A stretch of DNA of 64,000 bases from Letharia columbiana (lineage: Eukaryota; Ascomycota; Lecanoromycetes; Lecanorales; Parmeliaceae): assembly GCF_014066305.1 (NCBI RefSeq), contig NW_023501052.1, forward strand, positions 558,001-622,000, written 5' to 3'. How positions within the stretch are numbered: position 1 is the first letter of the stretch; every line of letters starts with the position of its first letter. The translations under genes were made by a program, and so were the position numbers. The notes beneath the pieces are model-generated. The model saw only the letters and a list, made by a program, of their open reading frames with translations, did no database searches and was not told the DNA's origin. Positions 28,675 to 51,830 of this stretch are shown in pieces.

Positions 28675-28830
28675 CAAAGCCTCTTGCTGTTGCTTCTTTT
28701 CCCTTTCTTTCCTCAGGTGACTGGTTCTTGCTAGAGCGCACAGCTTACCGTATCTATCACGATCCAACTCTGCACATCAGAGGACGAGGGTACTGTGGGA
28801 AAGGAGCTCCGGCACTCACAGAAGTATGAG
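28675..28830 (+). promoter_or_regulatory. Degraded copy of the hairpin leader
   Basis: Contains the leader's pyrimidine-rich start (GTTGCTTCTTTTCCCTTTCT), a CTCTG-CACAT-CAGAG hairpin (28768-28782) and the GTACTGTGGGAAAGGAGCTC plus UCCG block (around 28808). It lacks the terminal CTGGG/CCCAG hairpin and start codon. It leads into a helicase-like pseudogene, as the intact leader leads into the helicase at 40.4 kb. Confidence 0.6.
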
Positions 28831-29990
28831 ACCATACCAGCAGAAGGGCTGAGAGTAGGTCGGCCAACCCTACATACTTTCAACTTGCCGAAGACAGCAA
28901 CTTCCAGGTCACATACGGTGTTCCCATTGCACGCGAGATGCAATTCAACCAAGGTATCCATGTCAGACTTGAGAAGGATTGGTATGCGATATATATCCAG
29001 AGACTGTTAGTGTACTCCGTCGAAGGCAAGGACTTGCAGACTCACCCGCGCATGAAGGACACTTTCCAGGTTGGGGTTCGCATGACTCGTGGTCCGAAGA
29101 CTGGCCTGAAGGACGCGAAAGACATCGCCAATGGATGCCGAGTGGGCCAAGGGTTTGCCCGGCATTGACTGGGTCGCACCTTACAGCAGTCTGAAGGAAG
29201 CGCATATACCGCGGAAGTGATCCTAGCTATCTGGTCACCTTTTGGTTTATGAACCCTCTTCCCAAGTTCGAGTACTCCGCCGCGGTCAAGGACCATACAC
29301 CACCGTTTCATCAATACTTGGATGAGAATGACGAGCCCGTGATCAACCTCGACCTACCCACCATCGACGTAATCGGCAACGGCATATACAGGCGGTATCC
29401 CACGGTGACGGACCGGGACGACAAGAAAGTCGAGACGGGTAAGAAGACGTACTTCAACATGCCAAAGACAACTATGTGGGATTCCATCAAGACCTTCCAC
29501 ATCACATACGGTGTTCACATTGCACGCAAGATGCAATTCAATCAAGATATCCATGTCAGAACGGCAAGGCCTTACAACGAGATCCGTACCGGGCAGAAGC
29601 CAATGACTCTATTACACAGACTTGAGAAGGATTGGCCAGAGACTGCCAGTGTACTCCGTCGAAGGCAGGGACTTACAGGCTCACCCGCGCATGAAGGACA
29701 CTTTCCAGATTAGCAATCTTATAACTCGTGATCCGGCAACTGGCCTGAAGGATGCTAGCCCTCCAGATCGCACGACCGTCCTGTTCGACATATGCAACGG
29801 CGACCGTGCACAAGAAAAAGAGCACGAAACGATCGAGGAGCATATCTGCTACGGCCGTGTCGACAACATGGGAGGGAAATCCTTTCTCGAAAAGACCAAG
29901 ACAGAGTTCTGTGCCTTGTTGACCATACCGAGACGCTTCAAGACGCCCTCATGCGATGATTTCCGATGCCACCAACCATGACAATGTTTG
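28720..29990 (+). pseudogene. Pseudogene of the N-terminal half of the 36-40 kb helicase family
   Basis: Blocks correspond to residues ~330-590 of the intact helicase: DHTPPFHQYLDENDEPVI (intact copy ..DENDEPMI), IGNGIYRRYPTVTD, WDSIKTFHITYGV, then CYGRVDNMGGKSFLEKTKTE and LLTIPRRF. Reading frame changes several times and no SF1 motifs follow, so only the unnamed N-terminal region is present. An internal duplication is visible: 28860-29110 and 29440-29750 share FxITYGV../QFNQ.IHV../VYSVEG.DLQ.HPRMKDTFQ. The 3' end breaks into the chimeric junction shared with 23.33 kb. Confidence 0.8.
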
Positions 29991-30139
29991 CAAGATTTTT
30001 CGACGGCCTTTGACAACGCGGGGTTTAATGCAAGTAGCTCAGCTTGTGTTGTAGCTGAACGCGTCCCGAAAAGCTCGTCATCACGTGATCTGATGGCGCT
30101 AGTGAGCCGCACATTATCAACACGGTCGTTCCGGATTTC

Positions 30140-30339
30140 CTCCCTCATCAAGAAACTGATTGTTGCTAGAACAGCCCCCATACTGTTCACTACACGATCA
30201 CGATCTTCCTCTGCTCAGCAGAGGACCGGGTATTGAGGGAAGGAGGCTCCGGCCTCTCTTTGGATCCTGTGTCCACACACCTCCGGGTGTGAGTGTGTCT
30301 CCACTGGGCGGATTGACCCCCAGCTGATAAAAATATATA
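30140..30339 (+). promoter_or_regulatory. Hairpin leader of the 30.34-kb gene (most complete copy)
   Basis: Sense-strand inverted repeats in order: CCTCTGC-TCA-GCAGAGG (30208-30224); GAGGC-TCCG-GCCTC (30243-30256); CACACC-TCCG-GGTGTG (30276-30291); and CTGGGCGGATTGACCCCCAG (30304-30323), which pairs CTGGG/CCCAG plus GG/CC around one bulged C. The start codon follows 16 bases later after an A/T-rich spacer. The two TCCG loops closed by C-G would form cUNCGg tetraloops in RNA, a very stable class. The same series precedes genes at 34.0 (last two hairpins), 40.4, 42.9 and 51.2 kb. Confidence 0.8.
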
Positions 30340-31236
30340 ATGTCTTCATCGACACAAACCCCTCAACAGCTATATGAAGCTGAGAAGGCTCGAACCAAGG
30401 GACTCGACAAGAAGATCGCTAGGTTGGAAGCCGACCGCGAGAACGACCGCCAGACAAAGGAAGCCGACATCGAGAGAATCGATAGCTTAGAAGTGGAGCT
30501 TGAGCTCAAGGACGAGGAACTTCAAGCCAAGGATGCTACGATCCAAGAGCTTCAGACAGCCTTCGACGACGCTGACCGACCTAGAGCCCCAGGTGACGAC
30601 AAGAATGTCGAAGAGCTACAAGCAAAGAACAGGCTTCTCGAAGGGCAGATCAAGGACCTGGGCCAGAAGATTGACCAAGCTGCAAATGGGGATTGGAGGA
30701 ACGTCGCGCCACACCTCAACGAGACTATCACAAGGAATGCGCGCAAGATGAGTTCACAAATCGATGCATTTGAAGAAGAACTCTCGAAGGCCAACAAACA
30801 GCTCTCGAATGCCAATACGGAGCTCGCGAGCTCCAAAGAGGAACTCGGGGAGCTTCGAGAGTTCAACCAGGTGCTATTGAGAGAACTCGATTGTCTGTTA
30901 GCTGAAGCTGATAACCAGGCGGACATTCAGGCGTCGAGGAGTCGGAAATTCATTTCGTTGGCACAACAAGTGCAAGAAACGAATCATGCGCTCATTTCGC
31001 TGGCAGAACGAGAGAAAATTGAGACCGACTCTCCTTCCAAGTTTACAAATGCCTCTCGTCTGATACGGATAAGACTCGGCGCTGCCATAGACAAGGCGAA
31101 ACCCTTCACCCAAGGCCTGGAATCAAAGATCACTCCGACGCCAGCGAGTATGTTACCATCCCAAACTGCCGCAAAAAGGGCACGTTCACCCGGTGACATT
31201 GAGGTGCGCAGACTGAAACATAGGGGTTTTGGTTAG
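30340..31236 (+). CDS. Coiled-coil protein with hairpin leader; ORF likely shortened by TAG
   Basis: ATG at 30340 (MSSSTQTPQQLYEAEKARTK) opens 298 codons to TAG at 31234-31236. Residues ~10-95 and 130-210 are long heptad-rich helices (Leu/Ile at a/d, Glu/Lys/Gln elsewhere); between them lies QAKNRLLEG..NGDWRNVAPHL, shared with the 50-kb gene. The frame stays open after the TAG (QRPKGVSKGQTAKEG) for another ~170 codons, so the TAG may be a mutated CAG in a longer gene. The first codons ATGTCTTCATC are also those of the helicase at 40.4 kb, so leader homology runs into the coding region. Function unknown. Confidence 0.6.
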   Translation: MSSSTQTPQQLYEAEKARTKGLDKKIARLEADRENDRQTKEADIERIDSLEVELELKDEELQAKDATIQELQTAFDDADRPRAPGDDKNVEELQAKNRLLEGQIKDLGQKIDQAANGDWRNVAPHLNETITRNARKMSSQIDAFEEELSKANKQLSNANTELASSKEELGELREFNQVLLRELDCLLAEADNQADIQASRSRKFISLAQQVQETNHALISLAEREKIETDSPSKFTNASRLIRIRLGAAIDKAKPFTQGLESKITPTPASMLPSQTAAKRARSPGDIEVRRLKHRGFG

Positions 31237-32998
31237 CAAAGGCCCAAGGGCGTGTCGAAGGGCCAAACAGCGAAAGAGGGCATAGAAAAGCCTCAGGATA
31301 CGGCTGGCCAAGTGGTCACTAGAGCACGCAAAAGCAAGTCGGCTCCTGCGACTCGAGGCCTCAAACAAGGAGTCCACAAAGGACTTGCAGCCTCAAGCAA
31401 TCCTTTCGCCGCGCTGGCTGACGATGAGAAGCGGACCACTAAGTCCGCTGCCCAGGCAAAGAACTCTACGGACAATCGACAACCTTCTCCAAGCCGGCCG
31501 ATCGCCAACGAAAATGCTGAGAAGCGGGACCAGAAAGCTGGCAGCGCAAGGCCAGTCCCAAAAGAGTTTAAATACTCAAGGGCAGTCAAGCCCCCAGCAG
31601 GTCGGACACAAAGACCTTCATCAAAGTCCGCGCCGCCTACAAAAAAGAAGTCTTCCCGAACTTCCCGCTCAACCCAGCAGCCCCCTCCTTCGCACCAAAG
31701 TCCTCGAGAACGATGGCGCAAGTGGCAATCGACCCGCCGATGCTCGAGAAACCGGCGGCCACGAACCTTATAGAAGATTTCCTGAACGGGACGTTTTCGG
31801 ATTCGGACGAGTCGTCGGATTCGGACGAGCCAAGAAAAAAGTCGAGGATATCGGACAGGAAGAAGATGCAGGACGCTGCGGCAGGGAACGTCGTCGAACC
31901 TGGGAAGCGGAAACCCCGGGTTCCGGAGCCGAAGCCGGAAGCAGCCCTGACCCCACAAGACTTGGCGTCTGAGACTCACGGCAGTAGGAATCTCGCTGAG
32001 GGCGAAGTCAAGCCGTCGGCAGAGAAGAATACGAAGGTTATGCTCCAAGCTCTGGCAGACGAAGTTGTTGGAACTGGGAAGCAAAGCCGGCGCCCCAGGG
32101 TCCAAAGACGGAGCCGAAGCCGGCCACGCAAGTCATTGAGACTGGGAAGCCAAAGTCCATGAGTCCAAAGACGGAGCCGAAGCCGGCCCCGCAAATCATT
32201 GAGACTGGGAGGCCGAAGCCCATGAGTCCAAAGCCGGAGCCGGTCCCACTAGGCTTGGGGGAGAGAAAGTCGAACCCATTGAAAGATCTGGACAAGAGTC
32301 TTGGCAAAAAGTCAGAACGTTGGAGCGATTTGAGCGATGCAGAAGAGGCGGAACATGATAGTCTGAAGGGTCATGACGCTGCATCTGACAAAGACACCCC
32401 CAAAGAAGTTGCCTCTCCCTCCCGGAACGATAAAGCGGTTGTGGAAGGTACCGCCGGTATCAGCTCTACGCCAGCTGGCAATGATGGCAATCCAGTCGCC
32501 AGCTCCAATCCACTCTCCGGTGGAAGCGATCAAGCGGCCGTTGAGGGTTCCGCCGTTGCCAATTCCACACTGGCTATTGGTGAAGGTGATCAAACATCAT
32601 CGAAGGACGCCGGTGTCGCTAGAGATGCGCCTGCGGTGGTGGAGATTTCTCCCGGTGAGGAAGTGTCAGGCAAGGTAGAGCACGAAGCGACAGGGAAGGA
32701 CGCCACCGCTCCACCCACCCGTCAAGGTGAAGAAGCTACTCCCGCCCACCCAGCAAAGGCCGAGACTGTGCCATCAACTCCAGCCGCCCCCGGATCTTCC
32801 CTTCCCCATGGAGTTGGATCCGAGGCAAAAGGGACATTGAGGAGGAGGAAATGTTCAAGCCTCATCCAAATGCTCCCGGCAGACCCAGACCGAAAGGGAG
32901 GCAAAATGGCAAGTTCAAGCGTCAGGAAAAGACATTGGGGGAGGCAGAGGCTGAGGGAGGAAAGCCTGAGGAAAAGCCGGCCAAGTGAGAAGAGGTAG
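31237..32998 (+). pseudogene. Frame-broken continuation of the 30.34-kb coiled-coil gene
   Basis: After the TAG the same frame continues to about 31.67 kb. Coding-like text then moves to a second frame (MAQVAIDPPMLEKPAATNLI, then an acidic SDSDESSDSDE run) and to a third after about 32.05 kb (KPAPQGPKTEPKPATQVIET). The last 50 codons read best in yet another frame (EEEMFKPHPNAPGRPRPKGR, ending EEKPAK). Composition is Lys/Pro/Glu/Ser-rich and presumably disordered. A 63-bp (21-residue) tandem repeat starts at 32101, 32164 and 32227 (PKTEPKPA.Q.IETG.PK.MS). Several single-base indels are needed to restore one frame. Confidence 0.6.
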
Positions 32999-33454
32999 TC
33001 ACGTCTTCATTGTTACTATCCGATAGCAGAATTTGTATCATTGTGCTCTCCAGTAGCTGAAATACGATTCGTTTTCGAGGTAGCTTGAGGTCATTTACCA
33101 AGAAAGTGCTGCGAGTGAAGTAGACAAGGAAACCCTACATCAGTTAGACATGAAACCCTAGGTGGACGAAGGCATGGAAGTTCTCCGAGTGAAGTGGGCT
33201 ACATCGAGTGGGTGAGAAGTCCTAATTTTACGTAGAAAAGGAATCCCTAAGAGCAGTCTCCGAGCAGAGGCAGTTTTCGTGGGGAAAGGGCCCCTCAGGT
33301 TACAGCGGTGTTGCAGACAAGCGGAGAAGACAGAGGTGCAATCAACTCGAGTGCATTCACGCATGGCATTCAATACTGACATAAATGCAGTTCTTGCTCT
33401 CTTCAAGTCCCGGAAGAATGCAGTGATCACGAACAGATGATATTCACTGTGATA
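32999..33454. other. Region without recognisable gene
   Basis: 3' flank of the broken gene; GA-rich sequence with a 90-codon minus-strand frame (33158-33430) that I do not recognise and do not regard as a gene. Confidence 0.45.
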
Positions 33455-33640
33455 CCCTCTACTACCTATCTAAACCCTTTTCCTCCCAGAGGAACCATCG
33501 CTCCTACCACCATATCTCAACTTCTACATGTAGAAAAACACGCTTGACTCTCATGTCTTCTGTATCTACTTTGCATCTCTTCCAATTTTTTGTAAATGAT
33601 CATGCCCGGATTGCTTGCTCGGTAGATTACGAGTGAACGA
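33455..33640 (+). promoter_or_regulatory. Promoter-like repeat, copy 2
   Basis: Counterpart of 28478-28660 (see there). It ends in ATGATCATGCCCG, parallel to GTCATCATGCCCG in copy 1, and lies about 330 bp upstream of the leader of the 34.03-kb gene. Confidence 0.6.
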
Positions 33641-33963
33641 AGAGGGAGTGGCCATCCTGAGTCACCAGATTACGATGGACCAAAGGCCATTTTTTGAGTG
33701 GCTTTTAGGTAGAATCTGGGGGGGGTTTTCTAACGCATAAATGCAAGGCTTGTAACACTAGCTGGACCGAAAATTACCGGCTTCTCATGTAAAATCCTCC
33801 TTCTCCGAAACCTTCCTTCTCCAAATCCATCACAACAGTCGACCGTTGTACAAATCTGATAAACTGATGGTGACAAGTCTGGCTTCTCCAGCAAGGCACA
33901 CTTAAGTTTTGTAACTTGTGTGACGGGGGAGGTTTTCCCTTGTAAATCGGATTCCCAGAATTC

Positions 33964-34032
33964 GTCACACCTCCGGGTGTGGGTGTGTCTCCACTGGGCG
34001 GATTGACCCCCAGCTGACAAAAATTAACCCAT
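33964..34032 (+). promoter_or_regulatory. Hairpin leader of the 34.03-kb gene (last two hairpins only)
   Basis: CACACC-TCCG-GGTGTG at 33966-33981 and CTGGGCGGATTGACCCCCAG at 33994-34013, then A-rich spacer and ATG 19 bases later. The bases from the UCCG hairpin to the second hairpin are almost identical to the 30.3-kb copy, but the sequence upstream is unrelated, so the leader's 3' part can move or persist alone. Confidence 0.8.
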
Positions 34033-35409
34033 ATGTCCACATTCCCAATGCATACCAGCGAGAATCCCAATGCTCCTGCTGAGAATGCTGATTGGAGGAA
34101 GAATGTCGATGATCTTCACGAGATTCTAGCCTCTAATGCAACGTCAGTGATGAGGAATGTCCCGCCTAGAGGGCGCCCAGCCTATGAAGAGCTTGCAGAT
34201 CAGCTTCCAGTCATACTGAGCGAGATTCGGGACTTGGAAAGCCTTCAGAAAGAGAGGCTGGACGACATTCGTCGATGCCACGACCAGTGGCAGACGGCGT
34301 TATCCGATCGAACAGGCGAACTTGGAGACCTCGACAAAAGGGTTCGAGGAGCAGATAACAAAATCAGACAGCAGCAGTCCAAGCTAGATGGGCAGATGCA
34401 ACGCATGAGCCAGAGCGAGACTACTTTCGAGCAGCGTCAAGCTGAGGCCGACCGGACGTTTGCTAACACACAAGCCAGTACGGCCGCCGCGGTACGAGCC
34501 CTCTCCGACCTCACAGGGGAGAAAAATCACCTCGACAACTTGAGGAGAGATCTAGAAGCGAAAGAGCAATACCAAGAGTCTCAGACCCTGGCTCTGTCCA
34601 AAGCAAATGCACAGTTGGATCAAGAGGTAGCCAGCAACAAAGCTAAAGAAAGGAGACTAGCACGGGATCGGAAGACGGTGGGGGAGCAGCAGGGTAAGCT
34701 CGATAAATGGAAAGCTTACAAAGACCACCAGGTTGCAAGCGCCGTGGCCAAAGCCAACGAAGCCACTGAGAAGAGCAAGAGACTGTCCAGGGCAAGTGAA
34801 GGATTGGAGGTCGGCATGCAGAATCTTTGCGTTAACATCCTTCCGGAAAAGGAGGCAACAATCAAGAAGCTGACCGCATCCCGGAAAAACCTGACACAAG
34901 AGATCAACGACCTCAATTCGAAGGTACTGAGTCTTGAGGACAAAGTTCGAGGGCAGATTACTCAGCTACGCCAACTCGATCAGGAGAAGACCTCATTACA
35001 AGCTGTTGCCACTCGGGCCACCAGTGAAGCGGAATTGACGAAAACGAAACTGACGGAGGCCGAGACTACAACTCAGTCGCTGAACACGGCCTGGAACGAC
35101 AATTGTCTACTCCTGAAAACCAACGACGAGCTGCAAGCAGCCGCCCGCAATTGCAGATCGGAGCATTCCGACATCGAGCAACTTCGGCAGCAAGTACTGG
35201 ATCTCCAGATACAGAATGACGAGTTAAGACCTTGCAAGATCAACTTCGATGCGGCTAAACGCCTCCAGGATTTGAGCTTCTCTCAGATCAAGGAGCTTCG
35301 AGAGCATCGCGATGAAGTCCAGCAGGACCTCAGCAACCTGAAATCCCAGATGCAGCAGGACCTCGGTATTCATACCACCGCAATGGCCAGCAAGGACCAG
35401 ATCATTTGA
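34033..35409 (+). CDS. Long coiled-coil protein with hairpin leader
   Basis: ATG at 34033 (MSTFPMHTSENPNAPAENAD) opens 458 codons, almost all predicted coiled coil from residue ~60 (repeated Leu/Glu/Lys/Gln heptads, for example LRQLDQEKTSLQAVATRA). No enzymatic motif, signal peptide or membrane segment. It may act as a structural or oligomerising scaffold, by inference only. The TGA at 35407-35409 looks accidental: with one T fewer (ATTTGAG to ATTGAG) the coiled coil continues EELHGSCDSIERERDDLNEE. See the tail feature. Confidence 0.6.
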   Translation: MSTFPMHTSENPNAPAENADWRKNVDDLHEILASNATSVMRNVPPRGRPAYEELADQLPVILSEIRDLESLQKERLDDIRRCHDQWQTALSDRTGELGDLDKRVRGADNKIRQQQSKLDGQMQRMSQSETTFEQRQAEADRTFANTQASTAAAVRALSDLTGEKNHLDNLRRDLEAKEQYQESQTLALSKANAQLDQEVASNKAKERRLARDRKTVGEQQGKLDKWKAYKDHQVASAVAKANEATEKSKRLSRASEGLEVGMQNLCVNILPEKEATIKKLTASRKNLTQEINDLNSKVLSLEDKVRGQITQLRQLDQEKTSLQAVATRATSEAELTKTKLTEAETTTQSLNTAWNDNCLLLKTNDELQAAARNCRSEHSDIEQLRQQVLDLQIQNDELRPCKINFDAAKRLQDLSFSQIKELREHRDEVQQDLSNLKSQMQQDLGIHTTAMASKDQII

Positions 35410-35690: not shown

Positions 35691-35795
35691 CTATAACATG
35701 TCTTGCTTGGGCGGAAAACAAGAATACCCGTTCGCAAGTCGCATAACCCTGAGAAGTCATTGCGAAACAGTTGCCGACGTTTCGCATCATTCAGG
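35690..35795. repeat. Intact copy of the repeat split at 21.1/21.4 kb
   Basis: Both halves are adjacent here (..CGTTCGCAAG then CCTGAGAAGTCATTGCG..), in contrast to the 218-bp separation at 21.19-21.40 kb. It abuts the broken end of the 34-kb coiled-coil gene. Confidence 0.8.
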
Positions 35796-36104: not shown

Positions 36105-39100
36105 TTATCCTCTCCGCCTGAATACCATCCACGACTCATGATTCTGGTCGTCGTCGGCCTCCGCGTCCGCTGCGGTAGGTTGGTTCGAAATTTCCATTGC
36201 GGAGGGCTGCTCGGAGGTGTCCACGGCCTTGGCGGTAGGGAGGGGAGGGAAATCCGACGAGCTCAGGGATTCCTTCATCGTTAGCTCCAGAGACCGTTGC
36301 TCCGCCGCATGGGCCTCTGCAGTGACCTCGGAGGCTTCCTTCGCGAGGTCGATTTGCGCTTGCTCCGCATCGTGAGCGTCAGCAATTGCCGTGAGCTCGG
36401 GATTACCGATAGGCCGCGTGGTGTGTCCTCCGCGGGTGCGGTACTTTGGCAACGGACCAGCCTTGGGTCTGGCCGGCAGGTTCTTCATATCCTTCCAATT
36501 GACCCTGCCAGCGGCTAGGGAATCGTAATCCTTCAGTCTCTGGGTCTCTCGCTCAACCAGGAGCTTTTCCTCGCCCATTTTGGCACGGTCCTCGATGCTC
36601 TCGGGATGCGAGTCTTCTATCCAATCGGTCATCATGCAGTCGCGCTCTTTGGCGTCGCCTATCATGTTGGCAATAGCATTGTATTGCTTACCGCGGTTCG
36701 TTTTGGTGTTCGACACAAGCAGTGCCGCTTGGCAGAAGACGAAGGTAGCATCCCTACCGCGAGTGAGGGCGACGTTGAGACGGTTGGGACTCCTCACGTG
36801 GCGAGTGGCGATCCCCGGTTGGATGTAGCCCTCGCCCCCATTGTCGTCTTCATCCTCGAGCGGATTCCCGTATCTTGCCATCGAAGCCTTGAGCTTGTCC
36901 TTCGCAGCGACGATGTCGACGATGATAACGCGAGACTGCTTACCCTGGAAGGCATCGACGGTGGAGATCTCGATGGCGTCCTTGATCGCCTTAGGCCACC
37001 GCATGTCGCTAATCTTTTTTCTGAGAAGGCGACGCTGTCCTTGGTAGTAGCTAAGGATCTTGATCATCCGAGCCTTGATGGTTCCTTCTGTGAGGAAGCG
37101 GTCCACCAATCTGAGGATAGAGTCGGCATTGGCGTAATTGACGAGGGACGTCCCGTTGAGCTCGACCCGCGAACAACCATTTGCCACGTTGGTAACGACG
37201 TACTCTGACCCTTGGCCATTGTCTCCTCCGACATTGGCAGCTCGGGTCATTTTGCGTATGGCTTTCCGTACATCGTTGTCCTCCTTGACCTCATCGGAGT
37301 CGTGCAGACCTGCATTGTCGTAGAACTGCCACCGCGGAAACGCTGAGCATGCTGGACACATACGATACTGCGTGTCCAGAACCAAGCTGTTGAATCCCTT
37401 CATGGCAAGTAAAGCCAGTGGTGACACTTTGGCATTCGCGAAGAATTCATTGGACTGCCCAGACAGCGCCGTGGGCTCAAGCTGTTGGATGTCGCCGAAC
37501 AAGAAGAGACCCTCCCACTTCTCGAACGTCGTGAGTGGCACGCAGAGACTGGGAATGGATATGTGGCCAGTCTCATCGCAGAAGATGGCCGTCGGCACAA
37601 AGGAGCGGGAGCCTTCGAGCAGAGACCCTCCGCAATTACTTGCGATGCTGAACAAGATATGAGTCTCTGCCAGCACTCGCTCGACCATAGAGTCGCTCTC
37701 GTCCTCGAATGCCGTCCTCTCTACCCTAGTGATCCTTCCGCGCTTGGCTTGGTATTTTGCCATGCACTCCCTGTATTTTTTGGAGTTGTCGAAACTGGCG
37801 ATGGAGATTGCACCGGTGGCAAGTTGCCTGTGGAACTCATCCGGTGACAAGCGTTCTCGAGCGTCTCTGTAGTCCGCTTCGGCCATCCGCCTATCTCTTT
37901 CGGTGATCTCCCAGATGCGGTAGTCGAGTGTCATACCGGCGGCAACGTTGGACCGCTTTATTGGGTCGTATTCCTGGATAGCCTGGTACGCCTCATTGAG
38001 GTTCTCGTACTTCTCGAACATCTCAGTAGCGTATTCCTGCCGTGTGGCGAACTCCATGCAGATCTTGTCGAGGGCGTTCCGGATGGCTGGGTTATCCTGA
38101 GCCTCTTCTGGCCCAAGGTACTCAGGCATCTTGTCTGCCTCACCATCCGCGCCAGTGTACGCAGCGTAGCCGATCTTTGCAAGCCGCTGCGCTTTCTCTG
38201 CGCCATCGGTCTCAAGACGAAGACATTTGATGTCCTTCCTATCCTCTGGGCTAAGGCCACTCCAGACAGCATTGGCATCTGTATCCACGGCAACGTTGGA
38301 AGAAGCGACACAAACGACCTTGTGTCCAACTTTGGTCAGAGCAATGACCTTGTCACGAAGAGTCCTCGTCTTGCCTGCACCTGGTGGGCCCTGTACCACT
38401 GCGATATTACTTCGCATGGAAGAGGCTGCCATGAGTACTTTGTCCTGGCTTTGGTTGCTCCTGCGGGTTTGTTTCAAGTCTTGAAGGATCTGCTTGTACT
38501 TATCCTTGTTCGCGTCTGACCGACGGTGCGCGGGCCCTGCTGTGAGGTCAGTGACCGTACCTGTTTTGCTGGGATCTGACCAAAAGGCCAGACGGATCGG
38601 GTCAAGGAGCCCTGGCGCATAGTCCTCGCTACAGAGCTTGGCGAACGCTCGTTTGTCCCGATTTGCTGTGGTACGATCGACCTTGACAGTGACCATGGCA
38701 AGGGGTAGCTTCTCATCCACCAAGTACCTCTTAGTAGGCCAGCTCTTCACGTCTTTATTGAAGCGCCTCGGCATGGTCATCAGACAAACGAAGTCTGTCC
38801 CAGTCGTCTCGAGCCAGGCTCTTCCTCCATAGCTGTCAACTTTGCCATAGCAGCGGTGCTCGCCGAACATCTCGCGCCCTTTCTTTGCCGGCCCGGAGTC
38901 CCCGATTTCGATGGTGACGGTCGTGCCTACTGGAGGAACAGCGGCCTTCGTTCCGGTCTCCTGATCACGGGTCATACGAACCCCAGCCCAGTAGGTATCC
39001 AACATCTTCGGGGCGGGCACTAGGTTCTTGCCCTCAACGGTGAACTCTGGCATTCTCTGAAGGAAAACCCTATGGTAATCCAGCGCGAGTTTGGAGTGCA

Positions 39101-40406
39101 CACCTTCGTTGTATTGCAACTCGCGGACCAGAGGAACACCGTAGGTGACGTGGAATGTCTTGATCGAATCCCAGGTTACCGTCTTCGGCAAGTTGTAGTA
39201 TGTAGGATTGCGCGACCTATCCTCGACTTTTTTGCCGGCCGGGTCCGTCACTTTGGGATACCGCCTATACATACCGTTGCCGATTATGCCGATGGTTTTT
39301 AGGCCCCAGTCTATCATGGGCTCGTCATTCTCATCCAGGTATTGATGGAATGGCGGTGTGTGGTCCTCCACTGCATGGGTAAGTGGTAAGATGCAGCCGT
39401 CCATGAGTCGTTCAGATGTGGCGTAGGGGTTCATAAACCACACGGTGACCTGATAGCTTGGCTCTCCTCCGCTATACATGCGGTGCAGATTATCGGAAGG
39501 TGCGACCCAGTCATCACCCTTCAAAGCCTGGGCCCACTCCTCCTTCATTGGCGATGACTTGTGGACGTTGCTCTTGAAAGTCATGCAGAACAGCTTGTCG
39601 GCATCTTCTGGCTTCTTGCAGAGCGCTTGAATGGCGGGCGGGTAGGTGAACTTTAGCAGTTGGGGAACTGATGGCTTCGTAGCTGCCTCAACACCAAATT
39701 CTTCCATCATCCACTTGCCTCCGATCTTGACTCCTGGCTCCCAGCCTACGGCGAAGGTGTTGTAGTGATCTGCCCGTTTGGAGTCGCTGCCGTCCTTACC
39801 GAATTTGAAATTGAGTCCGACGGAGGGTTGTGCCAAAACACCTGGATCGAGTTTGACCTTTAAATCCCAGCCTGGCATTGATGATTTTGGGAATGGGTTG
39901 CCCATGACCACATTTGCATCGATCATGACTGCACACGGCATCGGCCCGGCTCGGAAGAGGTGCTCAAAGCTGGTTGGTCGTCGATTGGCAGGCACGTCTC
40001 CTGTGATATCCATGGCGTTCTGATCTGCCGTTGGATGGTCGCTCTTGGCCTTCTTGCCTGAAGCGGTTGGTGAAATGCCGGAAAGAGGTCGGTTTCGCTT
40101 TTCTGGTCGAGGTCCCTGAGTCTGACCGAACGCAGCTGCCTTGTTTGCTTCGGCCTTTGCGTCAGCTTCGACTTGTTGGTGAGCTTTAACCTTCTCTCTG
40201 AGCAATGCAACCGGGTCGAAACCACCGGCTCGCCTTTCGTTTCTTATCGTCCTTGACGTAGGAGCGCCACTCGAGATTTCAATAAGAGCTGCGTCCATCG
40301 CTGATGATGCAGACAGTGGTTGGTTGGGCTCGGCCGATGCGGGGAGGGCAGGGGCAATATCCTCGTCATAATCGATAGAAGGTTGAGATGTCCCTGATGA
40401 AGACAT
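36105..40406 (-). CDS. Intact UPF1/NFX1-like superfamily 1 helicase with unnamed N-terminal domain
   Basis: A single intronless frame of 1433 codons. ATG at 40406 gives MSSSGTSQPSIDYDEDIAPA. Residues 1-150 are low-complexity. Residues ~150-640 form a domain I cannot name (DHTPPFHQYLDENDEPM, WDSIKTFHVTYGVPLVRE, HRCYGKVDSYGGRAWLETT). The helicase core spans ~655-1240: Walker A GPPGAGKT (~672), motif II FCDETGH (~942; DETG in place of DEAG/DEAD), QLEPTALSGQ (~975), DTQYRMCP (~1010), VDAFQGKQSRVIIVD (~1150) and NRLNVALTRGRD (~1207), the UPF1-like set. The C-terminus is a charged helical region. It likely acts as an RNA or DNA helicase/translocase. It carries the hairpin leader and is the only family member here without a visible lesion. 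Confidence 0.88.
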   Translation of the reverse strand: MSSSGTSQPSIDYDEDIAPALPASAEPNQPLSASSAMDAALIEISSGAPTSRTIRNERRAGGFDPVALLREKVKAHQQVEADAKAEANKAAAFGQTQGPRPEKRNRPLSGISPTASGKKAKSDHPTADQNAMDITGDVPANRRPTSFEHLFRAGPMPCAVMIDANVVMGNPFPKSSMPGWDLKVKLDPGVLAQPSVGLNFKFGKDGSDSKRADHYNTFAVGWEPGVKIGGKWMMEEFGVEAATKPSVPQLLKFTYPPAIQALCKKPEDADKLFCMTFKSNVHKSSPMKEEWAQALKGDDWVAPSDNLHRMYSGGEPSYQVTVWFMNPYATSERLMDGCILPLTHAVEDHTPPFHQYLDENDEPMIDWGLKTIGIIGNGMYRRYPKVTDPAGKKVEDRSRNPTYYNLPKTVTWDSIKTFHVTYGVPLVRELQYNEGVHSKLALDYHRVFLQRMPEFTVEGKNLVPAPKMLDTYWAGVRMTRDQETGTKAAVPPVGTTVTIEIGDSGPAKKGREMFGEHRCYGKVDSYGGRAWLETTGTDFVCLMTMPRRFNKDVKSWPTKRYLVDEKLPLAMVTVKVDRTTANRDKRAFAKLCSEDYAPGLLDPIRLAFWSDPSKTGTVTDLTAGPAHRRSDANKDKYKQILQDLKQTRRSNQSQDKVLMAASSMRSNIAVVQGPPGAGKTRTLRDKVIALTKVGHKVVCVASSNVAVDTDANAVWSGLSPEDRKDIKCLRLETDGAEKAQRLAKIGYAAYTGADGEADKMPEYLGPEEAQDNPAIRNALDKICMEFATRQEYATEMFEKYENLNEAYQAIQEYDPIKRSNVAAGMTLDYRIWEITERDRRMAEADYRDARERLSPDEFHRQLATGAISIASFDNSKKYRECMAKYQAKRGRITRVERTAFEDESDSMVERVLAETHILFSIASNCGGSLLEGSRSFVPTAIFCDETGHISIPSLCVPLTTFEKWEGLFLFGDIQQLEPTALSGQSNEFFANAKVSPLALLAMKGFNSLVLDTQYRMCPACSAFPRWQFYDNAGLHDSDEVKEDNDVRKAIRKMTRAANVGGDNGQGSEYVVTNVANGCSRVELNGTSLVNYANADSILRLVDRFLTEGTIKARMIKILSYYQGQRRLLRKKISDMRWPKAIKDAIEISTVDAFQGKQSRVIIVDIVAAKDKLKASMARYGNPLEDEDDNGGEGYIQPGIATRHVRSPNRLNVALTRGRDATFVFCQAALLVSNTKTNRGKQYNAIANMIGDAKERDCMMTDWIEDSHPESIEDRAKMGEEKLLVERETQRLKDYDSLAAGRVNWKDMKNLPARPKAGPLPKYRTRGGHTTRPIGNPELTAIADAHDAEQAQIDLAKEASEVTAEAHAAEQRSLELTMKESLSSSDFPPLPTAKAVDTSEQPSAMEISNQPTAADAEADDDQNHESWMVFRRRG

Positions 40407-40625
40407 TCTAAATTATAGCAACTGGGGGTTCAATTCCCCAGTGGAGACGCACTCACACCCGGAGGTGTGTTGGGACACGAGTTCCGTAGGAGCCGGAGCC
40501 CCTTTCCCACAGTACCGCTGTCCTCTGCTTTGCAGAGGGGAGATCGTGATTAAAACGGCAAGCATAAGCTCTAGCAGTAATCGGTCACTTGAAGAAGAAA
40601 AGGGAAAAGAAGAAGCAGCAAGCAA
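40407..40625 (-). promoter_or_regulatory. Hairpin leader of the helicase gene
   Basis: In the sense (minus) direction: pyrimidine-rich start, CCTCTGC-AAA-GCAGAGG (40522-40538), GGGGC-TCCG-GCTCC (40489-40502), CACACC-TCCG-GGTGTG (40454-40469), and CTGGGGAATTGAACCCCCAG (40422-40441) where the stem is CTGGGG/CCCCAG. The ATG follows 15 bases later. Compared with 30.3 kb, the GGGGC/GCUCC stem keeps pairing despite changes on both sides. Confidence 0.8.
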
Positions 40626-42883: not shown

Positions 42884-43075
42884 TTTTTTTTTTTTTTTTA
42901 GCAGCTGGGGGTAAATCCGCCCAGTGGAGACTCAGAAGCACCAGAGCCCGGAGGCCCCTTTTCCCTCAGAAGTCCGCTGTTCCTCTGGTTGCCGAGGCCA
43001 GAGGAGAAGATTATGATCAGAGACTGTGACCAGTGAGATCTACTTTGGCAATGATCAGTGTCTTGAAGAAGGAAG
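42884..43075 (-). promoter_or_regulatory. Hairpin leader of the 42.9-kb coiled-coil gene
   Basis: Sense order: CCTCTGG-CCTCGGCAA-CCAGAGG (42982-43004), GGGGCC-TCCG-GGCTCT (42943-42958), CTGGGCGGATTTACCCCCAG (42905-42924), then a run of about 17 A and ATG. The first stem has changed its closing C-G to G-C relative to 30.2 kb while staying paired. The CACACC/GGTGTG hairpin is missing. Confidence 0.8.
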
Positions 43076-43124
43076 GTGAGGGCCGAAAAATTATTGACCA
43101 TCTAAGGCGCGCTAGTGGGTGTCG

Positions 43125-43781: not shown

Positions 43782-43889
43782 ATTGAAAGCAAGGCGTCGA
43801 CACGCCCCGAAAGTAACGACATTGCGAGAGTGCCGTTGAATCCTCCTCGAGACGCTTGCCCGCGGTCCACTGCACTCAAGGGGATGCAA

Positions 43890-45728: not shown

Positions 45729-46348
45729 CTAAGTTTCCCAACGCTCCACGCCCCACAACAGCTCCTCCGCCACGTACATCATGATCTCCATTGTAATGCG
45801 CCATCGGAGTCGAATCGTTGACTCTAGGTATACAGATCTATCGTCGTACAGCCTATGAAGGTACACAAATGTCTTCAGATTAGCCAGCCAAACACCATGA
45901 TGTTTTTATATACCTTTTCAGCATGCATCGAAAAAGGCCATATGTTTCGACCAGTTGCTTCTTATCTTCAGTGGTATCCACCATCGATTCGATCTCTTGT
46001 GCCCACCGCTCAAATGCCTATTTGGGTTCCCTTGCCAAATATCTCAGCGGCGAATGCTCCGTCCTGCTCGAAATTCTGAATGTACCCATGGTAACTGGTT
46101 GCGGTACAGAGAGCGAACCAGTGTCTGAGTACGACTAGTCTTGAAGAGAGGTCTGGATGGTGCATCAGATCCTGATAATAGACTGGGGCCGAGTCGGAAA
46201 GGATCTCCTCAATGATTTCGACCATGAATAGAGAACCCTCAGCTTGCACGAATCGTGTGTCTAACTTCCGTTGGACTTCTTGTGGCAGGAATTGCGATCG
46301 AATAGCAGGCGTTCGCAGAGCGTGTGCACCCGGCAGAAGAGTTGACAC
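45729..46348 (-). CDS. Unrecognised helical protein, exon structure uncertain
   Basis: Three coding blocks on the minus strand: LPQEVQRKLDTRFVQAEGSL with ILSDSAPVYYQDLMHHPDLS (to ~46.09 kb); AFERWAQEIESMVDTTEDKK with VETYGLFRCMLKR (46017-45914); and LYDDRSVYLESTIRLRWRIT ending VERWET then TAG (45852-45729). The last intron (45853-45913, GTATAT..CATAG) fits phase exactly. The first junction is off by one base with the only GT donor available (GTACAT at 46085), suggesting another indel or a missed exon. No family recognised. Confidence 0.4.
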
Positions 46349-46454
46349 TCACGCTGGCACTGTTCATCTTTGTTCCAACTCCACCAATGGCTTTCCGAGT
46401 TGCAATGACGGTGGATTCGACTTTGCTACTGCGTAATCATTGCGAATAAGGTTC

Positions 46455-46855
46455 CTACACTGACCATCCTGGGCACCGCTCGATTTCATTCCTCAAGACA
46501 TCTCTGTTCAGCGTGGTAACGTCTTTCGGACAAGCCCCCAGAAAGTCCATCGGACGGTCTATGCCATCGGATATATTAGACTCATCCCTTTTTGCCAGTC
46601 GCCAGAGGGTCTTGTAAGGTTGCAAAAGCTGTCTACAGAACAAGACGATCTGGTTTGGGAAGCGGCCATCATGGAAAAATCTGCCGAACCGAGCACTTGT
46701 AATTGAGGAGGTCCGTCAGCTCCGGAAACCCGCTGTACGAGGTAGGAGAGGGCCATGCAAATATTGCACTCCGCTGTTTGCGAAAAAGGTTTCAGGTAGT
46801 ATGGATTGTGATACCCGATCAGTACCGCAACGTTAGACACAAGTCGTCTGTCCAC
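46455..46855 (-). pseudogene. Degraded relative of the 53-55 kb F-box/LRR-like gene
   Basis: LQVLGSADFS then, one base out of frame, HDGRFPNQIVLFCRQ, corresponds to LQILAFGDFSYDGRFEDKRL LFCRQ of the 53.3-kb gene. The underlying DNA has TTTTCCATGATGGCC where the other copy has TTTTCCTATGATGGCC, a missing T. Further stops follow. Only the C-terminal third is present. Confidence 0.6.
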
Positions 46856-47159
46856 GTATTTCAGCCATCTTTAGCGCCCATTCCCCATTTTGGCTCACTT
46901 GGTCCTCTTGTAACTTCATCCTCTTTTCGTTGGCACTCGACGACGTTGGGGACCGACGTAATTAGAGAAATGATGTGATTGACTCAGAACCAGAGAGAGG
47001 AGTAGAGCTTTCGAACCAGCCTGCAAGTGGTAAGCGTATGTGAAACGATCGAATCTCGTGACGTAGCATAATTACCTTGCTGCCCATTGCTTTCACTCCG
47101 CTTGGCCAACAGAAGGGGCTTGTTTGGATGTGTCGCGACCGTATTTGTTTGGCGCTATC
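46856..47159. other. Spacer
   Basis: About 300 bp with no recognisable feature. Confidence 0.4.
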
Positions 47160-47534
47160 ATGTTAACGACGGCTACACTGATTCAAATGCCTTACGATCC
47201 CTCGTTCGCGTTCTTCTCCAAATCGGAGAAAGCTTTCCTGATCTTGTGTAGAGCCGTGCCATTACGTAGGACTTCTGGCGCTCTTTGCAAGAATGTTTCA
47301 AGGAGCTTGTGCTACTTTCGCTCGCGTTCTTCAGTGCGGCGATTCATTGCCATGAGATCCGGGTTCTGCTACCGAGGAGTGTTGCTCTACTGTCTCAGAG
47401 TCGTGTTCCCAAGCTGAGGTTTCCAAGTCCGTGTGATGCTGCTCCTCATTTTGGTTCTGCACAATGTTGGAGTTTGCTTGTGAGTGGGTGATTAAGCTTC
47501 GAGCTGCGGAGCAAGGAAAGACTTGTCGAGCCAC
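47160..47534 (-). pseudogene. C-terminal fragment of the coiled-coil family
   Basis: Minus-strand text MNRRTEERERK then a stop, then HKLLETFLQRAPEVLRNGTA and LHKIRKAFSDLEKNANEGS, aligns with the C-terminus of the 42-kb gene (KLYAEFLRWAPKVQQEGWLT, NKVRKAYAACQKIVE) and of the 47.8-kb gene (KLFEEFMQRAADVQRKDASK, NQSKKGFNDLH). An upstream Ser/Glu/His-rich frame (47331-47534) may be its preceding part. No start or complete frame remains. Confidence 0.55.
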
Positions 47535-47808
47535 GTCAATGTCCTCTTCGAGAACCCAGATCTGTTGTCCGTTAGTTATATTTGGGAGACTTCTTCGTCA
47601 AATATTCCGGGAATAGACAGGAACTTCTCTTCTGTATGCTTGAGATCATCTTCGGGCTTTTTTATTCGCCCTGGTAGAGCTTCTCTTTTTTCTTCCTCTT
47701 GTCCTGACAGGTGCTATTGCGATTCCGACAGCCTGAACTCGAAAATGCATCACCAAAAACTCTCTTCAAGCCAACTCAGACGTCCAGCAGTTCCCCCACT
47801 TTGACGAT

Positions 47809-49603
47809 CTAATGCAGATCATTGAATCCTTTCTTGCTCTGATTTTTGGAGGCATCCTTGCGTTGCACATCTGCTGCCCGCTGCATGAATTCCTCGAAAA
47901 GTTTGCACCATTTCTTGTCTTGTTCTTAGACTAGAAGGTTCTTCTCGTGGAGATCCTGCTTCTGGTGCCGAAGACCCTTCGTTTCTTCTTTGCTCAGCGT
48001 TCTCTGTTCTGAGATCGCCGAGCTGGCTTTCCGACGTGGCTTCTTTTCCACGCATCTGGTCCTTAGCCGAGTATTGCGCTTCGAGCTCGTCGATGTCCTC
48101 TCCTGGTACTTCCAGCTGATCCCCGAATGTTGAAGATGTCCAATCCTCTTGAATAGGGCCATCTACTAAAGAAGGCTGTGCTGCAGGATCTCCCACGTGC
48201 TCGTTTGCAAGCGCCATCTGAGTCTCATGCAACGGTGACTCTGAACCTCCCCAGAAACAATCTTCTTATTGGAACTTACGGTACTCATCAGCAGCTGCTC
48301 CAGCTCTTCAATAGTCTGAAATTGCTCTTCAACAGCTTGATGTAGTCGAGCTACTTCGGTAAGAGCATTCTCAAGCTCCTGTGCTTGGTCCTCGGCTTGG
48401 CTTTTTGGCTTGTGAATAGAGTACCCTGCTTTAATGGCCGAACGAGACCGCTCAAGGTCGACGAACTTTTGCCTGAGCTTGTTCACAGTTTGCTGCGATT
48501 CGGCAACCCGCAAGTTCGCGATGCGGTCTTGTTCTTCGAATTTCTTGCGAAACTCACTGCTCGAATCTTCAACATACAGTTTGTGCAAGTTGTCACATGC
48601 CGATGCGTTCTTAGCCGATTTCTTTGCTTTGTGCTGGTGGCTTGCTTTTGGGAGCCGTGATATGATTTTCCGGATCTTCAAAACGTTGTTGGATCTCAGT
48701 GTTCTACGCTCGAAGAGCAAATGTCGCAAAAATGCGGCGGAATCGTCCATGTAGCGCTTTTTTAGGTTGTAGTGAGTCATTTCCATGAGGCTGTCCAGAA
48801 CCTCGACTAGCGCGCTGCGAATGGACTCTTTGCTATCAGCGGGCCTATAAGCGTGAGTCAATGCTTCCTCATATCTCGGGAAACGTACCCTTTGTTTGGA
48901 TGTCGGTCAACTTGTCGAGAACGCAATGCTTCCAGCGCTGCGTCTTCTTCCAAGGCCAACATCTTCGCTTGCAACTGCACAGTCTTCATCTTCGTCTTAT
49001 CAATCTTGACGATTGGCAAGCCCACAATCGGTTTCGCATTCTCGTCCGAGAATTTTACTTCCAGTACAAGATTCAGGGCCTCGTTGTCTGAACCTTGTAT
49101 CACGTACCAAGTCCTCTTGATGAGTACCTGACTCACTCCGGTGACCTGTTGAGGTTGCCTTAGAATAGGGGTAGTTGGGCTCCAACGAACTTTTCCGAAG
49201 CGGTTTTCTCCCGACGGAACTGATCCAGTTCGACCCTGGCCTTCTTCCGCTTCTCGTCATATGAGTTTGATGACGATACCTCGAGGCCTTCGATCTGTGT
49301 CAAGCACTTGACAGATGTGTGGCGGAACTTTAGGGTCTCCTAGCATCCGATAGGTAATGTATCGATGATTGGCGTCTTGAGGATGATGATAAGCGCGATC
49401 CAGTCAAGAAACCGTAGCAGAGTCTCCCGCGTCACATTTGTCAGGCTTTTAAAATTCGCAGCATTCATAGTCTTCGAACGTAGGTGAAGTATGTTCGAGA
49501 ACTCCGCGCACATGGTGCTCTTCAGATTCTTCGTCTTGGCCGAGATTATCTGATCGGCCAAATAGTCAGATACCTCTTCTGAAAGTCGGCCCAGACTAGC
49601 CAT
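47809..49603 (-). pseudogene. Multi-exon coiled-coil gene with late frameshift and stop
   Basis: ATG at 49603 gives MASLGRLSEEVSDYLADQII. Exon joins that keep frame include KTASEKF|VTGVSQVLIKRTW (GTTGGA..CAACAG), HPNKG|PADSKESIRSAL (GTACGT..TTATAG, 45 bp) and LLMST|MALANEHVGDPAA (GTAAGT..ACTCAG). The body has a small globular part (VLIKRTWYVIQGSDNEALNL) followed by coiled coil (SQQTVNKLRQKFVDLERSRS). Near 48.0 kb the heptad pattern moves one frame (ISEQRTLSKEETKGLRHQKQ), meets a TAA, and ends with the family tail KLFEEFMQRAADVQRKDASK. The first intron is a guess. Confidence 0.55.
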
Positions 49604-49992
49604 ATTGTTCTCGCAAACCGATAGGTTGGTGTGGCAAGAGGACACGGTGGCAGGAGAAAATGATCTCAGTGATCACGGTGGGATAGTTGTGTGGCATTTC
49701 TTGCTGAGAATGGAGACGAGTACTGAGTTGAGCTTACTAACGAAAGTTAGCTTGGGAGTTGCTCTAGTAGTGGTCAACAAGGTCTTCTACAAGCCGTTCA
49801 GTGGAGGCATGTAGAAGACCTTGTTTTTGTTTCTCGAGGTCGCAGAAGTAGACAGCGAAGGTGGGACTACAAAGACGCCAGCCATTAGCATGTAAAGGAT
49901 GAGACCGAAATGGAAGACTTGGCCCAGACAGCGTAGTCGAACTATCTTTGAACCCTTGGGTTTTGTTCAGCTGAGCACTCGCATCTCCATTT
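49604..49992. other. Spacer
   Basis: About 390 bp of 5' flank of the 47.8-49.6 kb gene and 3' flank of the next minus-strand gene. No gene seen; no copy of the hairpin leader. Confidence 0.45.
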
Positions 49993-51035
49993 TCACTCCA
50001 AAAGTTCCTCGTTCACGATTTCTGCTAATGCTGCAAGTAGCTGCTGCTCCTTGTGGGTAGAGTAGGTGAGACGCTTGATCTCGTCCCAGCGGTGCACAAA
50101 AGCCTCGCGTGTCCGTCGAGCTCTCTGTACTACCGCTTGTAGCTTCGCGATCTTAGGTTTCATGTCGTTACATGTAAGCTCGAGAGCTTTAGCCTTGGCT
50201 CGGAGCTTGTCGTTTCCAGGCTCGAACTTTAATTCCCTTCCCCGGTTCTCCGCCCTTCGGACGTGTTCGAGTCGCTTCCTCTGGATATCAGCCTGCTCGG
50301 CTGCTTTTCCCAATGCCGACACCCTCACTCGGAGCTGAACAAGCTCTTGCTGCTCCTTTTCCAGTTTTGCAACATTAGATGACTCTGAGTCTTCTTGCTT
50401 TTCCATGAGACCCTGTGTCAGCTTTTGTAGATCATCGTTCTTTCTATGGGCTTGGTCCAGATCCTTCATAAGCACGTCTCGCTGCTGGACCAGAACAACA
50501 TTGGTCTCCCTTAGAACTTTATCCAGGTGCGGCTGCACAGCTGTCCAGTCCCTATTCACCGCGGCTGTGATTTGTGCGTCCTGGTCTCTGATTCTTCCTT
50601 CTAATGTCTGGATCTTTGCTTGGACCTGGGCGACAACTTCTGTTCGCGGGGACGGCGCGATTGGTGCGGGGACGGCGCGATTGGTGCAGGCTCGGCCTGG
50701 CGAAGGGAATCGGATTGAATCTGATCCGACAAATCCCCGGTATATTGCGTAGGACCACGTTCTCCAAGCTCGAGTCGCTCAATCGCTTCCTGAAACTCTT
50801 TGTCAGCTTCCACTCGCTTCTTCAGAATATTCTTCACTTTCTGGAAGCTTTGCCCACTGTGATCGATCATTTCGCAGGCTTTGCGTAGCTCATTGACCTT
50901 TTCTTGCAACGCGAGTTGCAAGTCCTGTTCATGGAGTCCGAGTGCTTCATTCTCCGCTTTGAGCTTTAGGTTGTCCTCATCTCGCTCTCGAGCGCGCGTC
51001 TTGAGCTCGGCATGACCTTTGGAGAACTGCTGCAA
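49993..51035 (-). pseudogene. Coiled-coil gene broken by a 20-bp tandem duplication
   Basis: The 5' part reads KGHAELKTRARERDEDNLKL and LQLALQEKVNELRKACEMID, all coiled coil, to SLRQAEPAPIAPSP. The 20-mer CACCAATCGCGCCGTCCCCG (sense) then occurs twice in a row (50647-50666 and 50667-50686 on the plus strand), shifting the frame. With one copy the protein would continue RTEVVAQVQAKIQTLEGRIR and NRDWTAVQPHLDKVLRETN, the block shared with the 30.34-kb gene, to a stop at 49993 (IVNEELLE). No ATG lies in frame at the 5' end; an intron ending TTGCAG near 51.04 kb is likely. It sits downstream of the amplified leader array. Confidence 0.65.
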
Positions 51036-51176
51036 TCCTCAGCCAGCGTACCAACAGATTGTGCTGTCATTGAAGATATCAAGGGAATGGTACCAGCCTG
51101 AGCCAAAGTGAGCTGCAGCGGTGAACCAGCGAGTCCAAAGGACCCTGATACCACGAGAGAGGAAAGTTTGATTTTT

Positions 51177-51670
51177 ACCAGCTGGGAGTCAATCCGCCCA
51201 GTGGATACACACCCGAACCCGGAGGTCCGACTACCACAGATGTGGAAGATTTGTTTATTTTTTACCAGCTGGGGGCAAAACCGCCCAGTGGAGACACACA
51301 CCCGAACCCAGAGGTCCGACTACCACAGATGTGGAAGATTTGTTGTTTTTTTTTTTTTTTTTACCAGCTGGGGGCAAAACCGCCCAGTGGAGACACACCC
51401 GAACCCAGAGGTCCGACTACCACAGATGTGGAAGATTTGTTTTTTTTTAATTTTTTACCAGCTGGGGGCCAATCCGCCCAGTGGAGACACACCCGAACCC
51501 GGAGGTCCGACTACCACAGATGTGGAAGATTTTTTTTTTTTTTTTTTTTTACCAGCTGGGGGCAAAACCGCCCAGTGGAGACACACCCAAACCCAGAGGT
51601 CCGACTACCACAGATGTGGAAGATTTTTTTTTTTTTTTTTTTTTACCAGCTGGGGGCAAAACCACCCAGT
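51177..51670 (-). repeat. Six-copy tandem array of the leader's terminal hairpin unit
   Basis: Units begin (plus strand ACCAGCTGGG) at 51177, 51264, 51363, 51457, 51551 and 51645, spacings 87, 99, 94, 94 and 94 bp. Each holds, in sense order, CCACA-GAT-GTGG-like (inverted CCACAGATGTGG), an ACC-TC(C/T)G-GGT mini-hairpin, the CTGGG..CCCAG hairpin and a poly-A (plus-strand T) tract of 8-20 bases. Loop bases differ between units (GGTTTTG, GGATTGG, GGATTGA) and unit 1 reads CTCCCAG, but the stems stay complementary. Length variation comes mainly from the poly-T tract. Confidence 0.9.
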
Positions 51671-51830
51671 GGAGACGCACCGACGCACCAGAGCCCGGAG
51701 GCTCTTTTTCCCCTCGTAGACCGCAGTTCCCCTGGTGAGCCAAGGAAGAAGATTTAATCAAAGCTGAAAGCAGTGTGGCTGCTTTGGCCGTGGTCAGTGT
51801 CTTGAGGAAGGAAGGAAGAGAAGTGAGTGA
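51671..51830 (-). promoter_or_regulatory. Upstream part of the hairpin leader of the 50-51 kb gene
   Basis: Beyond the sixth array unit the full leader continues upstream: AGAGCC-TCCG-GGCTCT (51690-51705) and a CCTTGG-CTCA-CCAGGG hairpin (about 51730-51745), then the pyrimidine-rich CTTCCTTCCTTCCTCAAGAC block. AGAGCC/GGCUCU against GAGGC/GCCUC at 30.24 kb is a multi-position compensatory change. Confidence 0.75.

Follow-up and report, generated by a model that had tools for sequence, protein, structure and literature searches.

Why do genes of different type within one cluster begin behind the same kind of hairpins, and do these hairpins act as RNA? The question arises from a stretch of 64,000 nucleotides (C17:558001-622000, called the window below) in the genome (52.2 Mb, 161 contigs) of Letharia columbiana, a lichen-forming fungus of the Parmeliaceae. 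The window contains a cluster of duplicated genes, namely an intact UPF1-like helicase and several coiled-coil genes, with broken copies around them. At five places, hairpins lie on the sense strand upstream of coding sequence. Judging from the sequence, we consider it on balance probable that they form a transcribed leader in the 5′ untranslated region (5′-UTR), which would control the translation of a co-regulated gene family and in which one hairpin, P3, would serve as operator.

An earlier note on this DNA had described one hairpin series shared by at least five genes. The five places and the sense-strand hairpins stand, and P3 occurs in all five leaders, as the sole hairpin common to them. 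The others (P1, P2a and P2b) are mixed and matched, no ATG directly follows the leader near 51 kb (51k), and a copy at 28675 is degenerate. The parts are as follows.

30136..30152, plus strand: CT-rich tract ending in CAAG, candidate transcription start region of g30340
30208..30224, plus strand: P1 of g30340, CCTCTGC-TCA-GCAGAGG
30242..30257, plus strand: P2a of g30340, GGAGGC-TCCG-GCCTCT
30276..30291, plus strand: P2b of g30340, CACACC-TCCG-GGTGTG
30304..30323, plus strand: P3 of g30340, CTGGG-C-GG-ATTGA-CC-CCCAG, 16 nt before the ATG
33966..33981, plus strand: P2b of g34033
33994..34013, plus strand: P3 of g34033, 19 nt before the ATG
40522..40538, minus strand: P1 of the helicase gene g40406, CCTCTGC-AAA-GCAGAGG
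40488..40503, minus strand: P2a of g40406, AGGGGC-TCCG-GCTCCT
40454..40469, minus strand: P2b of g40406
40422..40441, minus strand: P3 of g40406, with the variant top CTGGGGAATTGAACCCCCAG, 15 nt before the ATG
42982..43004, minus strand: P1 of g42883, CCTCTGG-CCTCGGCAA-CCAGAGG
42943..42958, minus strand: P2a of g42883, GGGGCC-TCCG-GGCTCT
42905..42924, minus strand: P3 of g42883, 21 nt before the ATG (42883), with an A tract between
51729..51746, minus strand: P1 of the 51-kb leader, TCCTTGG-CTCA-CCAGGGG
51690..51705, minus strand: P2a of the 51-kb leader, AGAGCC-TCCG-GGCTCT
51172..51681, minus strand: tandem array with a period of 94 and 5.4 copies, comprising 6 P3 and 5 P2b-like hairpins, A-rich behind the P3s
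28675..28830, plus strand: degenerate leader copy before a broken helicase duplicate

The order is P1-P2a-P2b-P3 in 30340 and 40406, P1-P2a-P3 in 42883 and 51k, and P2b-P3 only in 34033. Where the start is clear, which is so for four genes, P3 ends 15 to 21 nt before the ATG; in 51k, it opens the 94-bp tandem array. Near the start codon there is a hairpin whose short loop sits two pairs above a 5′ bulge, the rearranged top in 40406 being a variant without the bulge. With up to 3 mismatches, the P3 core TCCACTGGGNGGNTTNNCCCCCAG has 10 copies in the window and none in 100 shuffles, and P2b CACCTCCGGGTGTG has 3 copies (shuffle mean 0.19, maximum 2). The copy at 28675 has decayed: P1 is down to 5 bp and P2a to 2 bp, and P3 is missing. 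Loops had been said to vary freely, which fails for P2: the loop is UCCG in 8 of 8 hairpins of the leaders proper, and UCCG or UCUG in the 5 of the tandem units. CT tracts are a marker of transcription starts in fungi, and such a tract, ending in CAAG, starts 193–209 nt before the ATG of 30340, 40406 and 42883, with another before the 51-kb array. A literature search on the CT tract as a fungal start signal yielded no paper.

Are the stems maintained by selection? Those of P1 and P2a are present as the earlier note had quoted them, and its statement that both arms of a stem change while the pairing is kept holds for P1 and P2. It does not extend to P3, whose conservation lies in its sequence and which gives no covariation signal itself. 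We pooled six helices (P1, P2a and P2b from C17; P1, P2 and P3 from a second cluster, on contig C52), with three degenerate rows excluded. Among the variable-pair cells, 78 of 86 held standard pairs, against 63.4 ± 3.0 (maximum 75) in 20,000 column shuffles. With the degenerate rows and the C17 P3 included, the count was 96 of 113 (81.5 ± 3.1, maximum 93, in 8,000 shuffles). Double changes occurred in 11 pairs, where 5.8 ± 1.5 were expected in the smaller row set (p = 0.00085, column shuffles) and 6.5 in the larger one (p = 0.010 for column and 0.014 for whole-arm shuffles); these p values are optimistic, because the rows share ancestry and pairing was favoured when registers and bulges were chosen by hand. 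P3 of the second cluster (class II) was not significant alone, its pairing being matched by 71 of 500 shuffles. Base pairs of P1 and P2, pooled and in hand-set registers, are thus maintained through two-sided changes. We regard the pooled pairing as good but not final evidence of a selected structure; together with the mixing of P1 and P2, it supports the earlier proposal of a selected RNA structure in a modular leader.

Folding gave a mixed picture, with z-scores in the window of -2.5, -3.2, -0.7, -0.04, -1.4, -1.7 and -0.4; two of the window leaders fold at -55.8 and -56.9 kcal/mol. Perfect hairpins number 11 in 1,579 nt of leaders (7 per kb), against 1.6 per kb in the window, the leaders having been picked for hairpins; their density in the whole window equals that of shuffles. 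Mean pairwise identity among the five leaders is 83% in P3, 41% in P1-P2, 35% in the preceding 100 nt and 31% in the first 100 coding nt, where the 51k stretch is a guess. Without 34033, which has no P1 or P2a, the listed pairs give 82% for P3, 47% for P1-P2 and 39% for the preceding 100 nt. Since its identity exceeds that of its surroundings, duplication alone does not account for P3; the hairpin appears to be maintained beyond them by selection, or by local conversion.

The strand on which the structure acts can be approached through wobble pairs and start codons. In distinct P1- and P2-type helices read on the sense strand, a symmetric count gives 17 G.T and 4 A.C pairs (p = 0.0036). Ten assumed leaders, taken from the CT tract in four cases and as the last 130 nt in six, hold a single sense ATG, against 28.4 ± 4.9 in 500 shuffles. 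The five window leaders contain 1 ATG and 9 CAT, and equal-length stretches further upstream 24 ATG and 27 CAT. The near-absence of ATG and the excess of G.U over A.C on the sense strand favour RNA over DNA. Taken with the CT tract, they speak for a 5′-UTR that is transcribed, if not also scanned.

Which genes lie behind these leaders? Three are described here.

36105..40406, minus strand: g40406, intact UPF1-like superfamily 1 (SF1) helicase of 1433 aa, whose N-terminal domain is also a separate protein on C52
30340..31236, plus strand: g30340, coiled-coil gene, start codon and first open frame of 298 aa; coding-like frames continue past the stop
34033..35409, plus strand: g34033, coiled-coil gene, 458-aa frame with an apparent frame change at its end; homologues P0017-P0019

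The product of g40406 matches AAA_11 with 66 bits and AAA_12 with 106.4 bits (curated cut-off 27), which identifies it as a UPF1-like SF1 helicase, and the best solved-structure matches of its core are the UPF1/NAM7/SEN1 SF1 helicases. It differs from these in its own N-terminal domain and in being clustered with coiled-coil genes. The genes had been called unrelated, which is correct for the helicase as against the coiled-coil genes. The latter, judging by their sequences, are distant relatives of one another: the 30340 product is 34% identical over about 120 aa (E = 1.5e-5) to a frame at 50.3-50.7 kb, and a DWR-like motif, spotted by eye, is also found in 34033. Only the window helicase is clearly intact; stops or frame changes occur in 30340, 34033, 42883 and 51k, and a remnant of a broken helicase duplicate lies at 28.8-29.98 kb.

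Do similar leaders exist elsewhere? The earlier note had tied its reading to copies outside this locus, and the outcome is divided. The exact P3 occurs in this genome only here; a leader of different sequence and similar outline stands on C52, and a P3 before homologous proteins emerges from back-translation. In a whole-genome DNA search with positions 30000-30500, at least 10 places were found, all in the window among the best candidates scored. The genome-wide P3 pattern gave 25 matches. Of these, 8 are true copies and lie without exception on C17; the other 17 have 3 mismatches and are scattered (reversed control, 12).

A protein search detected a helicase paralogue on C52 in three segments (38, 30 and 33% identity). 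Its ATGGCTTCGTCG is immediately preceded by a multi-hairpin leader that is unlike the C17 leader in sequence and is present in two tandem copies, with fold z-scores of -2.8 and -5.7. Between the two copies, P2 shows a double change from TGCTAGT/ACTAGCA to TGCTGGT/ACCAGCA. Their P3 (class II) reads CCG-C-AG-4-base loop-CT-CGG, with an outer stem, and was located at the following sites.

C52, ten copies of class II P3: 208768, 208900, 209033, 211895, 211979, 213373, 229125, 229519, 233836, 233931
C41:181615, one copy of class II P3

The genome search for class II returned 18 matches (reversed control, 13). All 7 with 0 or 1 mismatch are on C52, and 7 with 2 mismatches look like chance. The core precedes a 34033-like coiled-coil gene in three units at 208-209 kb (20 nt to the ATG), a broken helicase N-terminus in two copies at 211.9 kb (16 nt), the coiled-coil gene 229111 (18 nt), the separate N-domain gene 229549 (15 nt) and the helicase paralogue (16 nt); no start was found behind the copy at 213373. 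The C41 copy has two hairpins upstream, an A tract behind it and an ATG 42 nt away with no open frame; it was used in building model R2, so its R2 score proves nothing. This solitary P3, with nine A and ATGTCTGG 42 nt behind, may be a relic of a lost gene. The three tandem units of about 132 bp at C52:208768-209052 consist of the leader and the first coiled-coil codons, and one of their hairpins has GNRA-type loops (GCAA, GCGA).

Both classes share an outline of stem, one-base bulge, two pairs, a loop of 4-5 bases, an A/T-rich spacer and the ATG. Models R1 and R2 did not cross-detect class I (the C17 form) and class II P3, so common descent of the two is not established. By hhalign (probability 99.2%, E = 8e-20, 22% identity), the 229549 protein is the N-terminal domain of the helicase in a free copy; its predicted fold is weakly PH-like, and from about residue 258 onwards it no longer follows its closest homologues. 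On C52, stops or frame changes interrupt the copies at 208 and 211 kb, and the helicase runs across three frames; this divergence and these breaks, like those in the window genes, come from decay or from assembly error.

In 3 of 16 helicase homologues from other genomes, P3 appears to have been read as protein, forming a false N-terminus before the presumed start.

P0005: MSPLGGLPPSWYSSI-MSP, P3 with a 5-base loop, in the same frame as P0008
P0008: MSPLGGVPPSWYSSI-MSP, P3 with a 5-base loop, in the same frame as P0005
P0006: ..CLYWVVEPPSQKFN-MSD, P3 with a 6-base loop, in a frame other than that of P0005 and P0008

We back-translated 35 homologous proteins (29,944 residues), reading from protein alone with degenerate codon positions left open and loops of 4, 5 or 6 allowed. 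Codons compatible with CTGGGNGG-loop-CCCCCAG were present only in these three. Since P0006 uses another frame than P0005 and P0008, it is the nucleotides that are kept, not a peptide. The other 13 helicase homologues have no P3 read-through; three of them start inside the protein and the rest may begin at the true ATG. P0002 (a helicase homologue) and P0017 (a 34033 homologue) may be linked in another genome, as both come with a longest contig of 18,752 bases.

Could the hairpins be explained without a translational leader? They might be DNA elements, that is, palindromic transcription-factor sites in a promoter, with transcription starting in the A/T-rich stretch before the ATG. Dimeric factors would fit palindromes, and the sharing of promoter DNA is real: a CACGTGA..CTAG stretch is common to 30340, 42883 and 51k, in addition to the CT tract. 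Half-sites should keep their sequence, however, and both arms of the P1 and P2 stems change. The preponderance of sense-strand G.T over A.C, a depletion of sense ATG confined to the leader and not seen further upstream, and an unpaired P3 bulge kept in most copies 15-21 nt from the ATG also make this unlikely. The hairpins and the A/T-rich spacer could instead act like an internal ribosome entry site (IRES), recruiting the 40S subunit directly, without scanning, for cap-independent translation. Several hairpins, an unpaired A/T-rich stretch and an ATG at a near-constant distance suit such loading, and the two strong folds given above would hamper scanning. The low ATG count is nevertheless typical of a scanned leader, and P1 and P2 are modular and even dispensable (34033), unlike the parts of a compact IRES; we think this quite unlikely.

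Two further explanations concern the history of the locus. Template switching during replication repairs quasi-palindromes by a published mechanism (PMC8794818, of which an excerpt was available) and, where a locus undergoes frequent duplication, could produce double changes in the absence of selection; this locus is rich in duplications and tandem units. Palindromes that come out of such repair should be perfect, whereas here the P3 bulge and G.T pairs remain, and the mechanism leaves unexplained the identity of P3 (83%, with 41% next to it), the fixed distance to the ATG and the P3 before homologues. We therefore consider it improbable. The earlier note had also suggested the terminal structure of a mobile unit, and more broadly the hairpins might belong to the end of a mobile element or endogenous virus carrying the cluster genes. 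Repeated units that adjoin AT-rich, transposon-like DNA (22-28 kb) and broken copies would agree with this. The longest inverted repeats of the window (I1, I2, I16), however, are a duplicate of helicase coding sequence, and leader copies that face opposite ways account for most of the remaining ones. P3 is found at start codons, on the sense strand, and only two viral-contig matches were obtained, both distant helicases (24% and 26% identity). A mobile or viral origin is accordingly highly improbable, and the suggested terminal structure found no support, though no empty site was available for comparison.

We thus return to the translational control leader. What speaks for it in the sequence is the position and repetition of the hairpins, the double changes in P1 and P2, the near-absence of ATG, the strand bias of wobble pairs, the outline found again in a second cluster and the P3-compatible codons in three homologues. 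That the leader is transcribed and acts on translation, and that a protein binds it and which one, is inferred. The hairpins would be part of the 5′ untranslated leader of mRNAs and act as RNA. Members of the family would be the UPF1-like helicase, the N-terminal domain of the helicase that stands alone in the C52 cluster, and the diverged coiled-coil genes. P1 and P2 would be scaffolding hairpins retained for their shape. The operator close to the start would be P3, which keeps a distance of about 15-21 nt upstream of the start codon, with an unstructured A/T-rich spacer behind it. In its folded state, or with a protein encoded by the cluster bound to it, P3 might limit the loading or scanning of the small ribosomal subunit, and by limiting initiation it could place the cluster genes under joint control. 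If this is true, a common structured leader joins several genes of different type into one post-transcriptional unit, and does so in a fungus.

A more speculative extension, which we rate as rather unlikely, is that each cluster has a private operator (class I on C17, class II on C52) read by its own cluster-encoded protein. Duplicated clusters would then each have acquired an RNA-operator code of their own in evolution, the counterpart in a eukaryote of the coat-protein operators of phages, and at single genes the operator would have been tandemly multiplied. Two clusters in one genome that are similar in outline but different in sequence provide a natural experiment on what a reader recognises, the shape or the sequence, and on what this reader is. 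Direct candidates, for the reader as well as for effects of dose, are offered by the helicase, by its separate domain and by the tandem hairpin arrays.

How does the leader compare with known systems? In the coat-protein operator of MS2-type phages, which stands by the start codon, a stem with a single bulged base in its 5′ arm is followed by two pairs and a short loop. P3 has the same features (with GG/CC as the two pairs in class I) and differs in that there is no coat-like protein, the bulge is mostly C, the class I loop has 5 bases and the host is eukaryotic. We take the likeness as a convergent resemblance only. In Rfam, the window from 28 to 53 kb had no match up to E = 1, and the five C52 and C41 loci gave one match, at 22.6 bits, below the gathering threshold of 50. 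Structured fungal 5′-UTR elements are already known: judging from excerpts of the papers, the SDC and amd motifs (PMC5640933) and the RPL12 5′-UTR structure (PMC8216456) are likewise conserved RNA structures upstream of fungal genes, with a proposed translational action or autoregulation, each tied to one gene or gene type. The Letharia leader, in contrast, is common to a helicase gene and the coiled-coil family, is built of several hairpins and has a different sequence in each of two clusters. The words "helicase" and "lichen" are absent from the main texts of both papers. Among the literature matches listed, no described element resembles this leader.

Some minor observations concern the surroundings of the leaders. 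On the minus strand at 49776-49825, a perfect 15-bp inverted repeat, AACAAGGTCTTCTAC..GTAGAAGACCTTGTT, encloses a 20-base loop containing CTCCACTG, about 180 nt upstream of a coiled-coil frame that starts near 49601. At 21100-21190 and 23340-23530, more degenerate pieces of cluster genes were noticed by eye (like those from 35690 onwards and at 29950-30680), apparently leaderless. The region 22000-28000, which adjoins the cluster, is AT-rich (33-43% GC in 2-kb steps) and resembles decayed transposon DNA. A minus-strand gene at 55771-57231 has HeLo (prion-inhibition) and DUF7580 matches barely over their cut-offs, and the end of the window (62001-64000) is very AT-rich, with 24% GC.

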